In this document: positions 17,308-26,801 of the stretch, piece after piece | Position numbering within the stretch: position 1 is the stretch's first letter | Layout: every line of letters starts with the position of its first letter | Assembly (NCBI GenBank): GCA_900318085.1 | Contig: ONJF01000016.1 | Coordinates: forward strand, 1 to 64,000 | Length of the DNA: 64,000 bases | From: an uncultured Bacteroidales bacterium | Lineage (GTDB): Bacteria > Bacteroidota > Bacteroidia > Bacteroidales > F082 | Direction: 5' to 3' | Notes under the pieces: generated by a model | Database searches by the model: none | What the model was told of the DNA's origin: nothing | Seen by the model: the letters and a program-made list of their open reading frames with translations, nothing else | Position numbers and translations under genes: made by a program

Positions 17308-19614
17308 TTAGTATTCTTTTCCAGTGCAATTTTCTAAATCCACATCGCGCACCAGCCTCACCGACAGGCCGTCGCCACGATGGCCGTCGCACTTGATCAT
17401 GACCATACCAAACCCGTATGAGTCTTCGGTGGCTGCATCCGAAGTATGGTAAACACCGGCATTCAAATAGACTCCGTCGATGGTGCGGACGCCTGCCTCG
17501 GGTAGGAAAACCACCCCCGCAGGCTCCATCACCTGTTGGAAGTCACTTTGACTAATGACATTGTTATTAGATTCAGCTGATACATCATTGACAGCATTCA
17601 ACTGATAGGTCGTCACTTTCCAATTGTCGGGCAAGATGAGCAGTCCGTTCACGCCATTCACTTTCGCTCTGGCGAAACGGACGCCCGAAGCGGTGTTGCG
17701 CACAAACAACAAATACATCCATTCCTCTTTCCTTGGCGTACGCCACAAGTGCTCACGCTTGCCACCATTCGAGATGGCGTTGTAGCCCCAGTCGGCCTTG
17801 CCCGACTGGTCATACAAATTGTAGGACGCCTTGCCGTAGGCATAATGCAGGGCGTTGCTTTGCGTGTCCTTGTTGCCGCTCCAAGGTTGCCAGTTCACCG
17901 CGCCATGGTCGTAGCCGCTCGTGGCCCATCCAAACAGGTCGATCCATCCGCTATAGGTCTCCGAGATCTTTTCGTTGTCTTTCCCTATGAAGTCATATTG
18001 GTGCTCGGCAAAACGCCATGTCTGCGTCATGGCCTGATATTGCAAGTTGCCTTTCGAGAACCTCACCTGCTTGCCCTCGCCAATGGAGATGAGCCCTGGC
18101 AAGGCACCTTCCTCCAAGGGAACGAGGGTATCCATCGGCATGGTAGTAAAGACCACCTCGTTACCATAGGTCGTGCCAGCGGTGCTGGTCAGGTAGGCCC
18201 GAACAAAATAGGTGGTGTTGGGCAACAAACCATCCATGAAGACGGGGTCGGAGCTACGCTCACAACAAGCATGGCGGCTCTTGATGGTGGGATTATGCAG
18301 CATGCCCCAACAGATGCCCTGTTCCGTCCCGCCATATTGCTTTGCCGACAACACATCTAGGCCACCCACAGCAGTGGTAGCCGCAATCTCTTGGACAGAA
18401 CGCGTTGTTATCGTGGGAGAGACGAGCCATTCCAGACTGTCGTAGGCCGCTTGACTAATCGTGCCTTTTCGATAGGCATCCCTAAACGACTTGCAATGGC
18501 TGTTGATAAAACCGACGACAGCTTTTTCATGTGATTGTTGGCAGTTACCGCTCTGGAAGACGAAGTTCATCCATTCCTGACTATTGTTCAGATAGAGATT
18601 CGCCATCTCATTAAGCCTTGCCTTGAGGTCCATGCTGGCATTAGCCAGTCGGGCTAGCATCACCTCCCGATACTCTTTCCCCTGCATGGCATCGTTGCTA
18701 ATCGGCTGAAACGCCGTGTTCACATACCATTCAGCCTCGCCAAGATAATTCTTCTGGTCGGCAGTCATACCACTGGCCATGGTTTCAGGCGCCTCAATGT
18801 TTGAGGCGGGCTTGATGGCAAGGATGAGCAAGGGGATCAGCACAGCCGCCACGGCGAGCCAAGGCACTGTTCTCCTCCTCTGATCACAACTTGCCAAGGC
18901 CTTGCGCACCGCCTCCATATCGGCATAACGCTTTTCCGGTTCCTTACGGGTGCATTGAACTGCTATGTGGCTATAACGGTGAGGAAACAGGTTGCCCAAC
19001 ATTAAGCCAAAGGCATACATATCGGCACGGCAGTCTATTTTTCGGCCCTGTTCCTTCTGTTCCGGAGCCATGTATTTCAAGGTACCAGCGGATTGTTTCA
19101 AAATGGCATAGTCGTCGGCATCGGAGAGACCGAAGTCAATGACTTTCACATTGTTGCCATTGCGTGTAACGAGGATATTGCTGGGTTTCAGGTCGCGGTG
19201 CAGGATCTGCTTGCTGTGGATATAGGCCAAGGCATCCACGAGTTGGTCCACCACCTTGCGGCGAACTTCGCTGGTGGGATTGCCTTCAAGAAAAACATCC
19301 AGCGTCACGCCATCGATGTATTCCATCACGATGCAAGGGCCCAGTTCTTCGTCCACATCTTTGGCGTATGCCTTCACGATGTTGGGATGGTCGAGTTGCA
19401 CCATCAACCCATATTCCTTCTTCAGCATCTCAAGGTAGACGGGCTGCTTACGAAACTCCTGTTTCAGCCCTTTCAGCAGGAACCACCTCCCCTGCCGCTT
19501 CACCTTCACCAGCTGGTTGAAGCCACGGCTGACCATAGGCTCGTAGGAGTTCTGTACCTCGTCGGCCGAGAGAAAAACTCCATTGAGGGGTCCCGATGTG
19601 CTGATGTCGTCCAT
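17308..19614 (-). CDS. Transmembrane Ser/Thr protein kinase with SUMP-like ectodomain
   Basis: A 768-residue protein. Residues about 30-245 are a Hanks-type kinase: Lys48 in RWFLLKGL, Glu in the C-helix, hinge IVMEYIDG, catalytic loop HRDLKPSN (139-146), DFGLSD (160-165) and GTLKYMAPEQ. A single membrane helix follows (PWLAVAAVLIPLLILAI, about 251-267), then a helical spacer, a fibronectin-III-like segment (about 398-492, with GLLPNTTYFVRAYLTSTAGT) and a C-terminal SUMP-like domain (about 504-760) of the same subtype as the lipoprotein at 2499-3380. All catalytic residues are present. The ATG at 19614 avoids a long non-conserved extension. Divergent from a putative regulator gene. Confidence 0.88.
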   Translation of the reverse strand: MDDISTSGPLNGVFLSADEVQNSYEPMVSRGFNQLVKVKRQGRWFLLKGLKQEFRKQPVYLEMLKKEYGLMVQLDHPNIVKAYAKDVDEELGPCIVMEYIDGVTLDVFLEGNPTSEVRRKVVDQLVDALAYIHSKQILHRDLKPSNILVTRNGNNVKVIDFGLSDADDYAILKQSAGTLKYMAPEQKEQGRKIDCRADMYAFGLMLGNLFPHRYSHIAVQCTRKEPEKRYADMEAVRKALASCDQRRRTVPWLAVAAVLIPLLILAIKPASNIEAPETMASGMTADQKNYLGEAEWYVNTAFQPISNDAMQGKEYREVMLARLANASMDLKARLNEMANLYLNNSQEWMNFVFQSGNCQQSHEKAVVGFINSHCKSFRDAYRKGTISQAAYDSLEWLVSPTITTRSVQEIAATTAVGGLDVLSAKQYGGTEQGICWGMLHNPTIKSRHACCERSSDPVFMDGLLPNTTYFVRAYLTSTAGTTYGNEVVFTTMPMDTLVPLEEGALPGLISIGEGKQVRFSKGNLQYQAMTQTWRFAEHQYDFIGKDNEKISETYSGWIDLFGWATSGYDHGAVNWQPWSGNKDTQSNALHYAYGKASYNLYDQSGKADWGYNAISNGGKREHLWRTPRKEEWMYLLFVRNTASGVRFARAKVNGVNGLLILPDNWKVTTYQLNAVNDVSAESNNNVISQSDFQQVMEPAGVVFLPEAGVRTIDGVYLNAGVYHTSDAATEDSYGFGMVMIKCDGHRGDGLSVRLVRDVDLENCTGKEY

Positions 19615-19733
19615 AATCGCTTGATTTTGCTGCAAAGATAAGTTTTTTCCCCCTTTCCTTGACAAAAGAACAAACAAGGACCAAAAAGGACCAATTCTAA
19701 TTCGAAAAAATGTTGTTTATTTGCGGTTGCAAA

Positions 19734-22767: not shown

Positions 22768-23712
22768 TCAATACTCCAACCGGATTTCATCCACCCAGAG
22801 CACATTGCCAACGGCGCCGACAAAAGCCCCTTGACTGCTGGAGGTAATCATCATAATGGCATGGGTGACAGGGCAATCCGCCTCGGCCCAAGCCTCTTCT
22901 TTGATGACTTTCTTTTTGCCTTTCTTGTTCAAGGCATACATGGTTTTGTCGCCCGAGATCAAGTCCATATAAGGCTGATATTCCTTCGCTTTTCGGGCAT
23001 CGCCGTAAATCACAGGCACCTTGAAATCCTTCACCCATCCTGTCGTCTTATCGACATGATACACTGCCGTTCCCACCCTTTTCGCATGGATATTGCCTTT
23101 CTCATCCTCCCAACGGTATTGCAGGACAAAGAGTATCTCGGCAGGGTCATAGCCATTAAATTCGGTGGTGCGGAAAGTCGTTCCCTTCACCAGCTTCCCC
23201 GTGTTCGGGATAGTGGCTTTGTAGTTGAGTACGAGGGCCTTGGGACGTTTCGTAAACGGGATGCCCCAATCCATGAAGGCATACGGGTCGCTGACTCCCG
23301 TCACTGGCTCAAGCATCTTTCCCCAATAGATGGAGCCACCCGCCAACACCTTAATACTAAAGAGTCCTGCCACCTTGCAATCGGCGAACTGGGTGGACAG
23401 TTTGGCGCATCTTCCATTGGGGCCTTTGTCGGGCTCCACATTGTTGCTCGTCTTCACCACACCCATCACCTTGGCAAAGGCATTCGATGTAGCCCAAATC
23501 GTATTCTTGTATTTATACGGCTCATTGCCGCGGATGGTGTCGGTGGGACCAATCACATACAAAGTTTTCTCCTGTCCCCCAATGACTTGCGACTCGGTGA
23601 CATAACGCACCGTCCAATGCTCGAAGTCACCGAAAGGGACCTTTTCGTAACGCTGTGCCGCAGCCGTCAGGCTGGCCAGCAAAAACAACAGTATTACTTG
23701 AACTTTTGCCAT
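22768..23712 (-). CDS. Secreted PCMD-like domain protein
   Basis: A 314-residue exported protein: signal MAKVQVILLFLLASLTAAAQ, then a beta-sandwich-like domain with FGDFEHWTVRYVTES, LFSIKVLAGGSIYWGKMLEP, FTKRPKALVLNYKATIP (the most PCMD-like stretch), WVKDFKVPVIYGDARK and a last strand GNVLWVDEIRLEY. PCMD (putative carbohydrate metabolism domain) proteins are common in Bacteroidetes and of unclear function. The start lies 19 bases inside the upstream SDR gene, so it is the last gene of the putative steroid-reducing operon. That link may be functional or simply positional. Confidence 0.72.
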   Translation of the reverse strand: MAKVQVILLFLLASLTAAAQRYEKVPFGDFEHWTVRYVTESQVIGGQEKTLYVIGPTDTIRGNEPYKYKNTIWATSNAFAKVMGVVKTSNNVEPDKGPNGRCAKLSTQFADCKVAGLFSIKVLAGGSIYWGKMLEPVTGVSDPYAFMDWGIPFTKRPKALVLNYKATIPNTGKLVKGTTFRTTEFNGYDPAEILFVLQYRWEDEKGNIHAKRVGTAVYHVDKTTGWVKDFKVPVIYGDARKAKEYQPYMDLISGDKTMYALNKKGKKKVIKEEAWAEADCPVTHAIMMITSSSQGAFVGAVGNVLWVDEIRLEY

Positions 23713-24509
23713 AACTTATCAACTAATCCATGGGGCAACAGGGCAATCAAAGGCGGCAAATAGCGGTTCATGAAGCCGGGCTTCACCACCCTTTTCTTCT
23801 TCATCATGCCTTTCAAAGCCTTCCGCACCAACCATTGCGGTGTACCTATCAGTCCAATTTTCACGCCAAACTTCAACAGGTTGGGCTTTAATTTGTAGAG
23901 CGGCGTAGCGATGGCGGCCGGACACACCGTGGTCACACCCACGCCATACGGCCGCATCTCGTAATACAACGACTTGCCAAAGCTCTTCAAATAAGCCTTG
24001 GTAGCCGAATAGATCGTGATGCCCGGACAAGGCAAAGTCGCGGCCATCGACGACATATTAATAAGGTATCCATAGCCGCGTTTCTTCATCTCCTCTCCGA
24101 ATAGTATACACAGTCTACTAGGCGTAAGAACATGCAGACGCAACATTGTCAATGCCTTGGCTTCATTTTCGGTGGTCAGTTCCTCAAAGAAGAACATGCC
24201 TGCATTGTTGATGAGGATGTCGATTTGCAGGTGCTCCGACTGACAAAAAGCGAACAACTCTTCCGCCGCCGTCTCTGTCGCCAGATTCTGATAATGCGTT
24301 ACAACCTGAATTTCCCGATCATGCTTCAGTTCCTCGGCCGCCTTCTGCAACTCCGCCTCTTGGTTGCTGACCAACAACAAGTTGCACCCGATTTCAGCCA
24401 GCTGGCGGGCATACTCCAAGCCCATGCCCGAGCTACCGCCCGTCACCAAAGCCCAAGGCAGATGCCCATAAGCCTCCTGAAACCTATTAAACCATTTTGT
24501 TTTGTTCAT
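23694..24509 (-). CDS. Short-chain dehydrogenase/reductase, candidate hydroxysteroid dehydrogenase
   Basis: A 271-residue SDR: cofactor loop ALVTGGSSGMGLEYARQLA (residues about 20-38), ILINNAGMFF, catalytic Ser in INMSSMA, YSATK with catalytic Tyr and Lys, and CPAAIATPLY. The tail is basic and hydrophobic (ALLPHGLVDKLWQKFK), as in membrane-associated 3-oxoacyl or 17beta-HSD12-like enzymes. It lies in one minus-strand run after a 5-alpha-reductase-like gene and an Old Yellow Enzyme-like gene, matching the gene content of reported 5AR/5BR/3beta-HSDH clusters. The steroid substrate is inference from context; a lipid or general ketone reductase is possible. Confidence 0.8.
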   Translation of the reverse strand: MNKTKWFNRFQEAYGHLPWALVTGGSSGMGLEYARQLAEIGCNLLLVSNQEAELQKAAEELKHDREIQVVTHYQNLATETAAEELFAFCQSEHLQIDILINNAGMFFFEELTTENEAKALTMLRLHVLTPSRLCILFGEEMKKRGYGYLINMSSMAATLPCPGITIYSATKAYLKSFGKSLYYEMRPYGVGVTTVCPAAIATPLYKLKPNLLKFGVKIGLIGTPQWLVRKALKGMMKKKRVVKPGFMNRYLPPLIALLPHGLVDKLWQKFK

Positions 24510-24523
24510 TGTTTTTGGTTTGT

Positions 24524-24594
24524 CGACCCTGACCCAAAACCCTGACCCTGACCAGTTTTCTGACGGTCAGGGTCAGGGTCATTGGTCATGGTCA
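24524..24594 (-). repeat. GACCCT/AGGGTC hexamer palindrome between the OYE and SDR genes
   Basis: The left arm has CCCTGACCCTGACC, the right arm GGTCAGGGTCAGGGTCA. The OYE gene stop codon is the last part of the right arm. A related palindrome lies before the other end of the OYE gene (25832-25908). Confidence 0.75.
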
Positions 24595-25824
24595 TCCATT
24601 CCTCTCCGCTTCGTCCACCTCTTTCTGCAAGCGTTCAGGCAGATGCTCCACGCAATGATGGCACTTCATCTCCAAGGTATACATACGACCGATGCAATAG
24701 TTGGAGTGCTTGCACTCGCTGCGGGTCACCTCGCCACTTTGCAGTTTGTTGACGAAGTCCGTATCGTTGACCAAGGCGCGCGCCATCTGCAGGGCCACGA
24801 AGCCCGAGTCGAGCACCTCTTCCATCTTTTCCTTCGAAACCATGCCACCCACATAGATGAGCGGCATCTTCAAGGCGGCCCGAAACTCCTTGGCGTCATC
24901 CAAGAAATAGCCTTCCTTGAACGGTACGGTGGGAATCACCAGTCTGCCTGCTATGGCCAGCCCTGCCTTCAGCCACCAGAATTTCTTCATGTCCATATAA
25001 TAACGCAAGGTCTTGAGCGGCATGGCACCACGCATCACCTCCATCGGGGCCTTGCTGACGAAACCCGCCGTAAGCACCAAGGCATGCACGCCGAGGCGTT
25101 CCAACTCTTGAGCCACTTTGATGCACTCTTCGCGCTGCATGCCACGACGGAAGCCGTCATGCATGTTCACCTTGACCACCACGGCCATGTCGTCGCCCGC
25201 AGCACGCATCACCTCCTCTATGACGAGGCGCATGAAACGCATCCTGTTCTCCAAAGAGCCACCAAACTCATCGTGGCGGCGATTGGTGTAAGGCGACAGG
25301 AATTGACTAATCAGGTAGCCATGACCGGCATGGATCTCGACGCAGTCGAAGCCTGCCTCCCGCGCCAAGTTGACGGACTTGCCGAAGTCTTTCACCAACC
25401 CGTAAATCTCTTCTTTCTTCAGTTTCCTATGAAATGTCGGAGAATACAAATTGAAGCCACTCGAGGCGCCCACAGGCATGCAGCCACAAGTGGCGCGGTG
25501 CGTCATGTTGCCGCAATGACCCAACTGGATGGAGGCCTTGGCACCATAGGCATGGACCGCATCGGTGAGTCGTTTCAGCTCGGGCACGATTTCCTCGCGC
25601 ATCCACAATTGACCGTTGAACGACAAGCCCGACTGGTTGACGGCAGCATAGGCCACCGTCGTCATGCCGACGCCGCCACGGGCCACAGCCGTATGATAGT
25701 TGAACAAGTCGTCGGAGGGACGATTGCCGTAGGCCATGTTCTCGAAGGCCGCCGAGCGGATCACCCTATTGCGCAAGGTGATAGGTCCGATTTGACACGG
25801 AGTGAATATAGGTGAAGTTTCCAT
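24592..25824 (-). CDS. Old Yellow Enzyme-family NADH:flavin oxidoreductase, candidate 3-oxo-steroid reductase
   Basis: A 410-residue single-domain TIM-barrel enzyme: PCQIGPITLRNRVIRSA, GGVGMTTVAYAAV, ASIQLGHCGNMTHRA, DCVEIHAGHGYLISQFLSP followed by YTNRRHDEFGGSLENR, VVVKVNMHDGF, PLIYVGGMVSK and VALQMARALVND. The HAGHGYL and GGSLENR motifs bind FMN and substrate. Cys residues cluster in ECKHSNYCIGRM and CHHC near the C-terminus, a possible metal or iron-sulfur site. OYE-family reductases reduce activated C=C bonds; gut 5-beta-reductases and BaiCD/BaiH belong here. The ATG at 25824 excludes codons made of the flanking repeat. Confidence 0.85.
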   Translation of the reverse strand: METSPIFTPCQIGPITLRNRVIRSAAFENMAYGNRPSDDLFNYHTAVARGGVGMTTVAYAAVNQSGLSFNGQLWMREEIVPELKRLTDAVHAYGAKASIQLGHCGNMTHRATCGCMPVGASSGFNLYSPTFHRKLKKEEIYGLVKDFGKSVNLAREAGFDCVEIHAGHGYLISQFLSPYTNRRHDEFGGSLENRMRFMRLVIEEVMRAAGDDMAVVVKVNMHDGFRRGMQREECIKVAQELERLGVHALVLTAGFVSKAPMEVMRGAMPLKTLRYYMDMKKFWWLKAGLAIAGRLVIPTVPFKEGYFLDDAKEFRAALKMPLIYVGGMVSKEKMEEVLDSGFVALQMARALVNDTDFVNKLQSGEVTRSECKHSNYCIGRMYTLEMKCHHCVEHLPERLQKEVDEAERNG

Positions 25825-25831
25825 AGTGTTT

Positions 25832-25908
25832 TCAGACCCAGACCAGTGACCCTGACCCTGACCATCCAAGCTGTAGATTGGTCAGGGTCTGGGTCATCGG
25901 TCAGGGTA
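25832..25908 (-). repeat. GACCCT/AGGGTC palindrome upstream of the OYE gene
   Basis: GACCCTGACCCTGACCA pairs with TGGTCAGGGTCTGGGTCA around an AT-richer loop. It fills most of the gap between the 5-alpha-reductase-like and OYE genes. Confidence 0.75.
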
Positions 25909-25952
25909 ATATGCTCATTATTTATTCAAAGTCTATTATAACTAACTATAAA

Positions 25953-26720
25953 TCAGTATATAAACGGTATTATCCTTTTAACCTTTTTCGTATCCAACTG
26001 GTCGCCAAACTCTTCCTGATATCGTTTGTAGATGTGGTCGGCACGAGGACCGAGGTTGGCGAAAGTCCAAAGGGCGAACACGGCGCCTGCCCACGACCAG
26101 GTGAGGATGGCGAAACCTATCCATTCCACGAACTCGCCGAAATAGTTGGCCGAGGTCACATAGCGGAACATGCCACCTTGGGGCAAATAATGCTTGGTGT
26201 CGCCCTCCTTACGGAGATTACGGATGATGTCGTCACTCTGGATGTTGATATACATGCCGATGATGAAAACCAGGAAACCAGCGATGAAACGCGGGTCGGT
26301 GAGCCAGTCGGCAGGGTAATAGTCTGCAGGTGAGATATAATAGATCCAGCCGCCCTGCATCAAGGCGTTGAGCACGTTGAAGGTGACACCCATCAGAACG
26401 ATGGAGAGCGGCATCATGCTATGGCCTCGCATACGGAAGGGGAACACAAACGAACGCTGGATATAGTGCAGCTCAAACACGAACAGGAAGGCCAGTCGGA
26501 CCAAATCGCCGCGACGGTCGGAGAACAGCCAAAGCAGCAGCATGGCGATAAACACGGGCGATTCCATAAGCACCCACCCCAACTTGTTGTTGACTGCCGG
26601 ACCCCATTTCGGATTGTAGAACTTGCCATAGCCCGCATCGACGAAATAAAGGCTCACGAACACCACCACGGCTATAACAGCCATGACAATCAGGAAAAGA
26701 TGGAAGGATTGAATGGACAT
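25953..26720 (-). CDS. Steroid 5-alpha-reductase family membrane enzyme
   Basis: A 255-residue polytopic protein with about six hydrophobic segments. The C-terminal domain is that of 3-oxo-5-alpha-steroid 4-dehydrogenases (Steroid_dh): YLPQGGMFRYVTSANYFGEF, then VEWIGFAILTWS, FALWTFANLGPRADHIYKRY and EEFGDQ. Other features are HYIQRSFVFPFRMRG and IGMYINIQSDDIIRNLRK. Family members reduce the delta-4 bond of 3-oxo steroids with NADPH to the 5-alpha product. The ATG at 26720 is used; a TTG two codons earlier is possible. First gene of a run with OYE and SDR genes. An isoprenoid or lipid enone reductase is the main alternative. Confidence 0.85.
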   Translation of the reverse strand: MSIQSFHLFLIVMAVIAVVVFVSLYFVDAGYGKFYNPKWGPAVNNKLGWVLMESPVFIAMLLLWLFSDRRGDLVRLAFLFVFELHYIQRSFVFPFRMRGHSMMPLSIVLMGVTFNVLNALMQGGWIYYISPADYYPADWLTDPRFIAGFLVFIIGMYINIQSDDIIRNLRKEGDTKHYLPQGGMFRYVTSANYFGEFVEWIGFAILTWSWAGAVFALWTFANLGPRADHIYKRYQEEFGDQLDTKKVKRIIPFIY

Positions 26721-26801
26721 AGGCAATGAAAATAGTGTTCAAAATTAAGAAAAAACAGTTTTACACCGATACTTTTTCACTCAACAACCAAAAAAATCCA
26801 T

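Follow-up and report, generated by a model that had tools for sequence, protein, structure and literature searches.

Gene Content and Conservation of the Locus

A run of four genes that may serve in the reduction of steroids lies on contig ONJF01000016.1 of an uncultured Bacteroidales bacterium (assembly GCA_900318085.1), of which positions 1 to 64,000 were analysed and are hereafter called the window. All four genes are open and are encoded on the minus strand. The first one, hereafter 5AR, encodes a Steroid_dh reductase of the SRD5A type (positions 25953–26720; 255 amino acids; PF02544), a membrane protein by its family. It is followed by a short flavin reductase of the Old Yellow Enzyme type (OYE; 24592–25824; 410 amino acids; PF00724), a candidate 5β-reductase or reverse dehydrogenase, by a short-chain dehydrogenase (SDR) of a type that we call SDR1 (23694–24509; 271 amino acids; PF00106), a candidate 3-hydroxysteroid dehydrogenase, and by a PCMD-domain protein (22768–23712; 314 amino acids; PF13201) with an N-terminal hydrophobic, signal-like stretch recognized by eye. 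Coordinates and Pfam families agree with a preliminary description of this DNA, which had placed the three enzymes in one run and had added a secreted PCMD-like protein as a fourth gene overlapping the SDR gene by 19 bases (23694–23712). The genome that contains the window amounts to 3.24 Mb in 93 contigs, with a completeness of 100% and a contamination of 3.1%.

Such a run is conserved among relatives. From 212 relatives, 80 named loci were kept, many of them near-copies and some from genomes present twice, so that the counts given here are not independent. The OYE gene starts at most 300 bp after the end of 5AR in 78 of these 80 loci, the two exceptions being L075, whose contig ends 491 bp on, and L083, where OYE lies 1.9 kb off; the gene run is therefore not due to chance. 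Gene order was counted in the 70 named loci whose sequence continues for 4 kb or more beyond 5AR, leaving out 10 of the 80. SDR1 is present in 67 of them, a second type of short-chain dehydrogenase (SDR2) in 21 and PCMD, on the operon strand, in 37. Synteny, by which the preliminary description had proposed to check the gene set, is thus conserved. The commonest order is that of the window, 5AR-OYE-SDR1-PCMD (27/70), followed by 5AR-OYE-SDR1 (n = 18), 5AR-OYE-SDR1-SDR2 (n = 10), 5AR-OYE-SDR1-PCMD-SDR2 (n = 9) and 5AR-OYE (n = 3), and three others are found once each. PCMD and SDR2 occur together in 10 loci. The two loci L021 and L022, whose 5AR are 92 and 91% identical to that of the window, harbor SDR2 at the position of the window's PCMD, and in L021 it overlaps SDR1 by 19 bases, as PCMD does in the window.

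According to their record titles, the named relatives are metagenome genomes assigned to Bacteroidales or to groups within or around it, with one Lachnospiraceae, and their hosts include cattle, buffalo, yak, deer, goat, sheep and horse. A gut site is given in 24 titles, of which 19 name the rumen, reticulum, omasum or abomasum and 5 the duodenum, caecum, colon or faeces; the remaining 56 give none. Throughout the order, 112 of 385 good-quality genomes exhibit a 5AR match at E 0.001, weak matches included. The contig titled Lachnospiraceae (L100) encodes 5AR (65%), OYE, SDR1 and a gene of the SDR2 clade, following either a binning error or a transfer. One bin (SRR12081298_bin.67) contains two differing copies of the operon (L023 and L024), due to a duplication or to mixed strains, and L066 harbors a secreted glycosidase-like open reading frame (470 amino acids, by eye) between OYE and SDR1, then SDR2 and PCMD after SDR1.

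The Membrane Reductase and the Flavoenzyme

The 5AR protein scores 156.3 bits against PF02544, for a cut-off of 22.6, and is the single match to this family in the window genome. Its closest solved relatives are steroid 5α-reductases, namely 7c83 (E 2.1e-54 over residues 9–254 of 255) and 7bw1 (E 4.6e-41), and not enzymes acting on non-steroid lipids, an outcome that the preliminary description had named as refuting its reading. It reaches 187.8 bits with the bacterial and 144.1 bits with the human steroid 5α-reductase; an enoyl-CoA reductase (art-1), at 41.3 bits, is so far behind that this identity was ruled out. Neither 5AR nor the PCMD protein is named by any NCBIfam model. In human SRD5A2 numbering, the window enzyme retains Y33, E57, Y91, R94, N160, D164, R171, N193, E197, R227 and Y235. 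Among these, an alignment of 146 sequences including that of the window shows no variation at Glu57, Tyr91, Asn160, Asp164, Arg171, Glu197, Arg227 and Tyr235; the catalytic set of SRD5A2 is Gln56-Glu57 together with Tyr91. A different pairing is seen in three Bacteroidales loci (L146–L148), where 5AR is solitary, with no OYE, and is directly preceded by an extended SDR resembling 3β-hydroxysteroid dehydrogenases or epimerases by eye (in L147 by clustering of open reading frames).

The flavoenzyme scores 203.7 bits against PF00724. Its residues were counted over 134 sequences of 380–440 amino acids, the window included, plus two named isolates, and two sequences of other lengths were dropped. 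H165, H168, Y170, C371, C377 and C388 are invariant in all 136, and the cysteines form a C-terminal motif C-x5-C-x10-C. The nearest NCBIfam models describe long flavoenzymes including BaiCD, all far under cut-off. An identity as BaiCD was ruled out by the score against its equivalog (NF041087), 200.9 bits for a cut-off of 825, with a match that stops at position 257 of 642; with 410 amino acids, OYE has no room for the C-terminal half of that model.

Two Types of Short-Chain Dehydrogenases

The window SDR (133.2 bits against PF00106) exhibits TGGSSGMG, NNAG and YSATK, corresponding to the classical SDR motifs TGxxxGxG, NAG and YxxxK. Its top NCBIfam match is a mycolate reductase, at 112.5 bits for a cut-off of 380. 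In a tree of 71 rows, for which the close relatives L023–L065 had been thinned to five loci, SDR1 and SDR2 form separate clades with a support of 99/97 and a single change in all 200 bootstrap trees. The window SDR belongs to the SDR1 clade together with that of Parabacteroides distasonis (45.9% identity), and is only 29.5% identical to SDR2 of Phocaeicola massiliensis; Phocaeicola is the genus of the former Bacteroides dorei. No SDR2 was detected in the window genome, where the top match reaches 22% identity over residues 6–139 (E 7.5e-5). The operon family thus has two candidate enzymes acting at C3, SDR1 and SDR2, kept or lost by lineage. An open reading frame of L070 taken for SDR2 is no SDR; it was dropped from the operon counts and stays in the tree as a very long branch labelled SDR2. 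Locus L149 presents a tandem pair of SDR1-type genes behind 5AR-OYE.

The preliminary description had likened the three enzymes to gut Bacteroidales clusters with a 3β-hydroxysteroid dehydrogenase (3β-HSDH) that yield isoallo bile acids. An identity of the window SDR as the 3β-HSDH of such a cluster is not supported, as two non-orthologous SDRs occur in such operons and that of the window is not the one of Phocaeicola, so that isoallo products do not follow. Given that the window encodes SDR1 and no SDR2, the compound that it yields at C3 may be another one than in the Phocaeicola-type cluster of the human gut.

Candidate Promoter Box, Spacer Repeats and Neighboring Genes

A candidate Bacteroidetes-type promoter −7 box, TAATTTTG, lies at 26740–26747 on the minus strand, 27 bases ahead of the 5AR start codon. 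In 38 of 46 close relatives (L021–L067, grouped by identity and not by taxonomy), the Bacteroidetes −7 consensus TAnnTTTG precedes the 5AR start by 15–45 bases, compared to 1.4 expected from single-base shuffles. The more distant named loci (L068–L100) have it in just 2 of 32 cases, and the full −33/−7 pair is restricted to 13 of 145 upstream regions.

Both spacers, between 5AR and OYE (25825–25952) and between OYE and SDR1 (24510–24591), harbor palindromic repeats. All seven copies of GGTCAGGGTC in the window are within them, for a mean of 0.07 after shuffling. They form near-perfect palindromes on the operon strand that would fold as long hairpins, with −52.8 kcal/mol (z −6.86) for the 5AR-OYE spacer and −44.8 kcal/mol (z −6.42) for the OYE-SDR spacer. 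The repeats noted in the preliminary description are hence real, but they are ordinary dispersed elements. Indeed, GGTCAGGGTC has 40 hits on 16 contigs, in about 20 clusters, throughout the genome (6 for the reversed control), the spacers of many relatives measure from a few to about 15 bp, and other inserts occupy the same junctions. By eye, the OYE-SDR palindrome is common to L028, L034 and L037 and a related one follows 5AR in L034, a different insert is seen at the OYE-SDR junction of L031, L042, L048 and L061, and further ones follow 5AR in L006, L024 and L053. A role of the repeats as part of the system was ruled out on these grounds, although the palindromes may tune expression between the genes.

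The operon is followed on its 3′ side by a DUF5606 gene, a DHODB-type electron-transfer gene and a pyrD-like gene (the last by eye), and a divergent zinc-peptidase-like gene (by eye) lies on its 5′ side. Elsewhere in the window, positions 17308–19677 encode a protein with a kinase-like N-terminal part and a surface-protein-like C-terminal part (by eye).

The PCMD Protein

The fourth protein scores 83 bits against PF13201, for a cut-off of 28, and matches the PDB members 3hbz and 4het weakly in sequence (E 1.3e-4 and 6.5e-4). An AlphaFold model of it, moderately confident with a pLDDT of 67.9, has a single fold match under E 0.001, namely 4het_B (probability 1.00, E 1.2e-5, TM 0.39). In a tree of 66 rows (60 different), seven unlabelled rows are further copies, of which six or more lie on operon contigs. 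The operon copies belonging to the window's lineages group there with moderate support (88/78, or 96/97 when the unlinked copy of genome G026 is added). This group is apart from BT2081-like copies and from another paralogue that the window genome encodes away from the operon, and the operon copies of family f102 are found elsewhere, beside unlinked PCMDs of other families.

PCMD recurs as a partner of the operon in three arrangements, on the same strand behind SDR1, on the same strand 7 bp ahead of 5AR (L090), and, in five genomes of family f102, divergently at a distance of 291–381 bp upstream of 5AR. Among 24 genomes of the same genus, PCMD is present in 9 of 13 with 5AR and in 0 of 11 without it (Fisher P 0.0006, uncorrected for relatedness); three of the nine have an unlinked paralogue only, and a 20-bit 5AR match in G003 was taken as absent. 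The association looks real. In another contig (L222:4110–6087), a PCMD-like gene adjoins a gene that resembles sulfotransferases by eye (GHWRSGTT motif); a Bacteroides sulfotransferase is reported to act on cholesterol (PMC9417993).

Proposed Function and Alternative Readings

We propose, with a probability of about 0.62, that the four genes form one transcription unit that reduces ring A of 3-oxo-Δ4 steroids or of very similar planar enones. In the inner membrane, 5AR would transfer a hydride from NADPH onto the Δ4 double bond, yielding a flat 5α product. OYE would have this double bond as its target too, either forming the 5β product or re-opening it, and SDR1 would interconvert 3-keto and 3-hydroxy groups. 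Outside the cytoplasm, the steroid or one of its conjugates would probably be bound by the secreted PCMD protein. What the sequences show is which genes and families are present, their synteny, their conserved catalytic residues and a promoter-like box kept among relatives; co-transcription and the reactions, substrates, cofactors and part played by PCMD are inferred. The shared pathway suggested in the preliminary description is supported as far as a steroid-type ring-A reduction operon is concerned, and steroids are probably right as substrates; its choice of bile acids is unsupported. Its emphasis on the fourth gene was justified.

Several observations weigh against this proposal. In 5AR, Gln56 is replaced by Met in 146 of 146 homologues, and His231 of SRD5A2 by Ile in the window enzyme. 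Met at position 56 is also found in Phocaeicola, so that this replacement marks these Bacteroidales enzymes and not the window alone. Similarly, OYE exhibits Ala26 and Glu28 in 136 of 136 sequences, where the OYE of 3krz has Cys and Tyr, and remains far from BaiCD. In Table 1 of one paper, P. distasonis appears under both 3α- and 3β-HSDH and not under 5β-reductase (PMC12692668); as this bacterium is credited with both activities, the stereochemistry of SDR1 cannot be read off. Moreover, 5AR is dispensable, since no match to it was found in six genomes of the same genus with a completeness of 94–100% (G009, G011, G015, G017, G117 and G271). These six genomes, to which the statement is limited, present no operon genes in the 3.9–6.8 kb upstream of DUF5606-pyrK-pyrD, the only place where OYE and SDR were sought. 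Genomes G418 and G426 are not counted with them; G426 seems to be the same genome as that of L052, where the operon lies at another site. Finally, the window genome has no match to the bile-salt hydrolase family, three candidates having been scored and none being significant.

This last result weakens bile acids as substrates, as does the fact that 19 of the 24 site-titled relatives come from stomach compartments. The same chemistry could be directed at sterols and steroids of plants or fungi taken up with the diet, or at host steroid hormones, a view that we consider a serious contender although it falls somewhat short of even odds. It is favored by the stomach compartments, which lie upstream of bile entry, and by the missing hydrolase. 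On the contrary, the literature consulted reports bile acids as the class on which Bacteroidota clusters act, and those deconjugated by neighbors would be usable without an own hydrolase. Habitat and hydrolase point to bile acids no more than to steroids from plants, fungi or the host, without being a proof.

Another possibility, to which we give somewhat less credit, is that PCMD binds polysaccharides and has no part in the pathway, being located downstream by happenstance. PCMD proteins of the BT2081 type are indeed described in polysaccharide-utilization loci (PMC2954218). PCMD is also missing from the operon in 33 of the 70 named loci, 18 of which are among 45 close relatives, and in the tree the operon copies from f102 are separated from the group of the window and adjoin unlinked PCMDs from other families. 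Such a chance neighborhood would however have to account for the three different arrangements of PCMD with 5AR, for its restriction to genomes with 5AR in the same genus and for its overlap with SDR1. At the other extreme, PCMD might be a dedicated extracytoplasmic binder of steroids or steroid conjugates in ruminant-stomach Bacteroidales, with the choice between SDR1 and SDR2 setting the 3α or 3β epimer. This is a speculative and rather improbable extension of the proposed ring-A reduction, but it would provide a new function for PF13201, so far only a "putative carbohydrate metabolism domain," and would imply that the window's lineage makes an epimer different from that of human-gut isoallo producers.

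Eukaryotic SRD5A3 with DHRSX reduces polyprenals, and TECR with a ketoacyl reductase reduces fatty enoyl groups. An operon devoted to such non-steroid enones or enals is unlikely here: the distant match of 5AR to the enoyl-CoA reductase art-1, the mycolate reductase as top match of SDR1 (far under its cut-off) and a resemblance, by eye, of SDR2 to retinol-dehydrogenase-like SDRs speak for it, but 5AR scores far higher with steroid 5α-reductases (in a compared set without SRD5A3), the SRD5A residues are kept and an OYE partner would suit ring enones.

Comparison with Known Systems

The solved enzymes PbSRD5A (7c83) and human SRD5A2 (7bw1) share with the window 5AR a near full-length homology, the catalytic Glu and Tyr and the NADPH residues, whereas the window enzyme differs by Met for Gln56, His for Tyr178 and Ile for His231. 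BaiCD and related long Fe-S flavoenzymes have the N-terminal barrel in common with the window OYE (first 257 model positions), from which the latter differs by its shorter length and its three invariant cysteines. Similarly, BT2081 (3hbz) and BT3745 (4het) share the Pfam family of the window PCMD and may share its predicted fold, whereas the latter belongs to a diverged group with a weak sequence match to them and is encoded in an enzyme operon rather than in a polysaccharide locus.

A search of the plasmid collection PLSDB with 5AR retrieved two records, from P. massiliensis TSDC17.2-1.1 and from a replicon of Nocardia farcinica (36%). The human-gut P. massiliensis cluster (OY726067.1, L177) has the order 5AR-OYE-SDR2. 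Its 5AR and OYE are 58.7 and 65.3% identical to those of the window and come in the same order, whereas SDR2 replaces SDR1 and no PCMD match is present within the 16.8 kb retrieved. The top match of the window SDR in the same collection is from P. distasonis TSDC17.2-1.1 (NZ_OY725754.1, L218), where OYE (60.6%) and SDR1 (45.9%) are likewise adjacent, overlapping by 1 base, with RND efflux genes ahead. Unlike the window, this 117 kb record shows no 5AR match and no PCMD among the adjoining annotated genes. Both PLSDB "plasmids" may be chromosome fragments, and the P. distasonis record carries ribosomal L25/Ctc and pth genes. A counterpart of this OYE-SDR1 pair is found in genome G418 of the window's genus (L216), as an OYE-SDR2 pair at the DUF5606-pyrK-pyrD locus, with no 5AR within the 9 kb retrieved.

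In the literature consulted, P. distasonis converts 3-oxo-Δ4-lithocholic acid (LCA) to 3-oxoLCA, a 5β product, and interconverts LCA, 3-oxoLCA and isoLCA (PMC11647740). Another paper lists it under 3α-HSD and places "Bacteroides and Parabacteroides strains" under 5β-reductase, citing Sato 2021 (PMC12789469, Table 3). Chicken isolates of P. distasonis and two Odoribacter isolates are described without a 5AR gene (PMC6069880). The genotype of P. distasonis, OYE-SDR1 without 5AR, thus fits a 5β-reducing, non-5α phenotype. Of the indirect arguments for OYE as a candidate 5β-reductase, this one is the best. More generally, the contrast between 5AR-OYE-SDR1, 5AR-OYE-SDR2 and OYE-SDR1 genotypes should be useful for assigning 5α, 5β, 3α and 3β activities, and PCMD constitutes a recurring and testable partner. 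The dehydrogenase slot of such clusters is filled by either SDR clade, by both or by neither, rather than by one enzyme, and labelling every such SDR as 3β-HSDH could mispredict bile-acid or steroid products.

As for clusters of known activity, the 5AR of Parabacteroides merdae is reported with a predicted 3β-HSDH and an NADH:flavin oxidoreductase, its disruption stopping the formation of alloLCA derivatives, and B. dorei strains are reported to produce isoalloLCA from 3-oxo-Δ4-LCA (PMC10382948). No ruminant or rumen 5α-reductase cluster was found in the open-licence PMC literature, in which one chicken-caecum paper turned up. Compared by review descriptions, the cluster of 5AR, 5β-reductase and 3β-HSDH of P. 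merdae and Odoribacteraceae resembles the window in its 5AR beside a flavin oxidoreductase and an SDR, in Bacteroidales. The preliminary description had stated that the window contains the same three enzyme types as reported gut clusters, which holds for the 5AR-OYE core, as found in Phocaeicola, and not for the SDR, which belongs to the other clade. The window further differs from the known cluster type by its PCMD gene, by the lack of a bile-salt hydrolase match and by its relatives, which largely come from ruminants. A steroid-reduction module known from human gut bacteria thereby extends to Bacteroidales of a group that occurs largely in ruminants.

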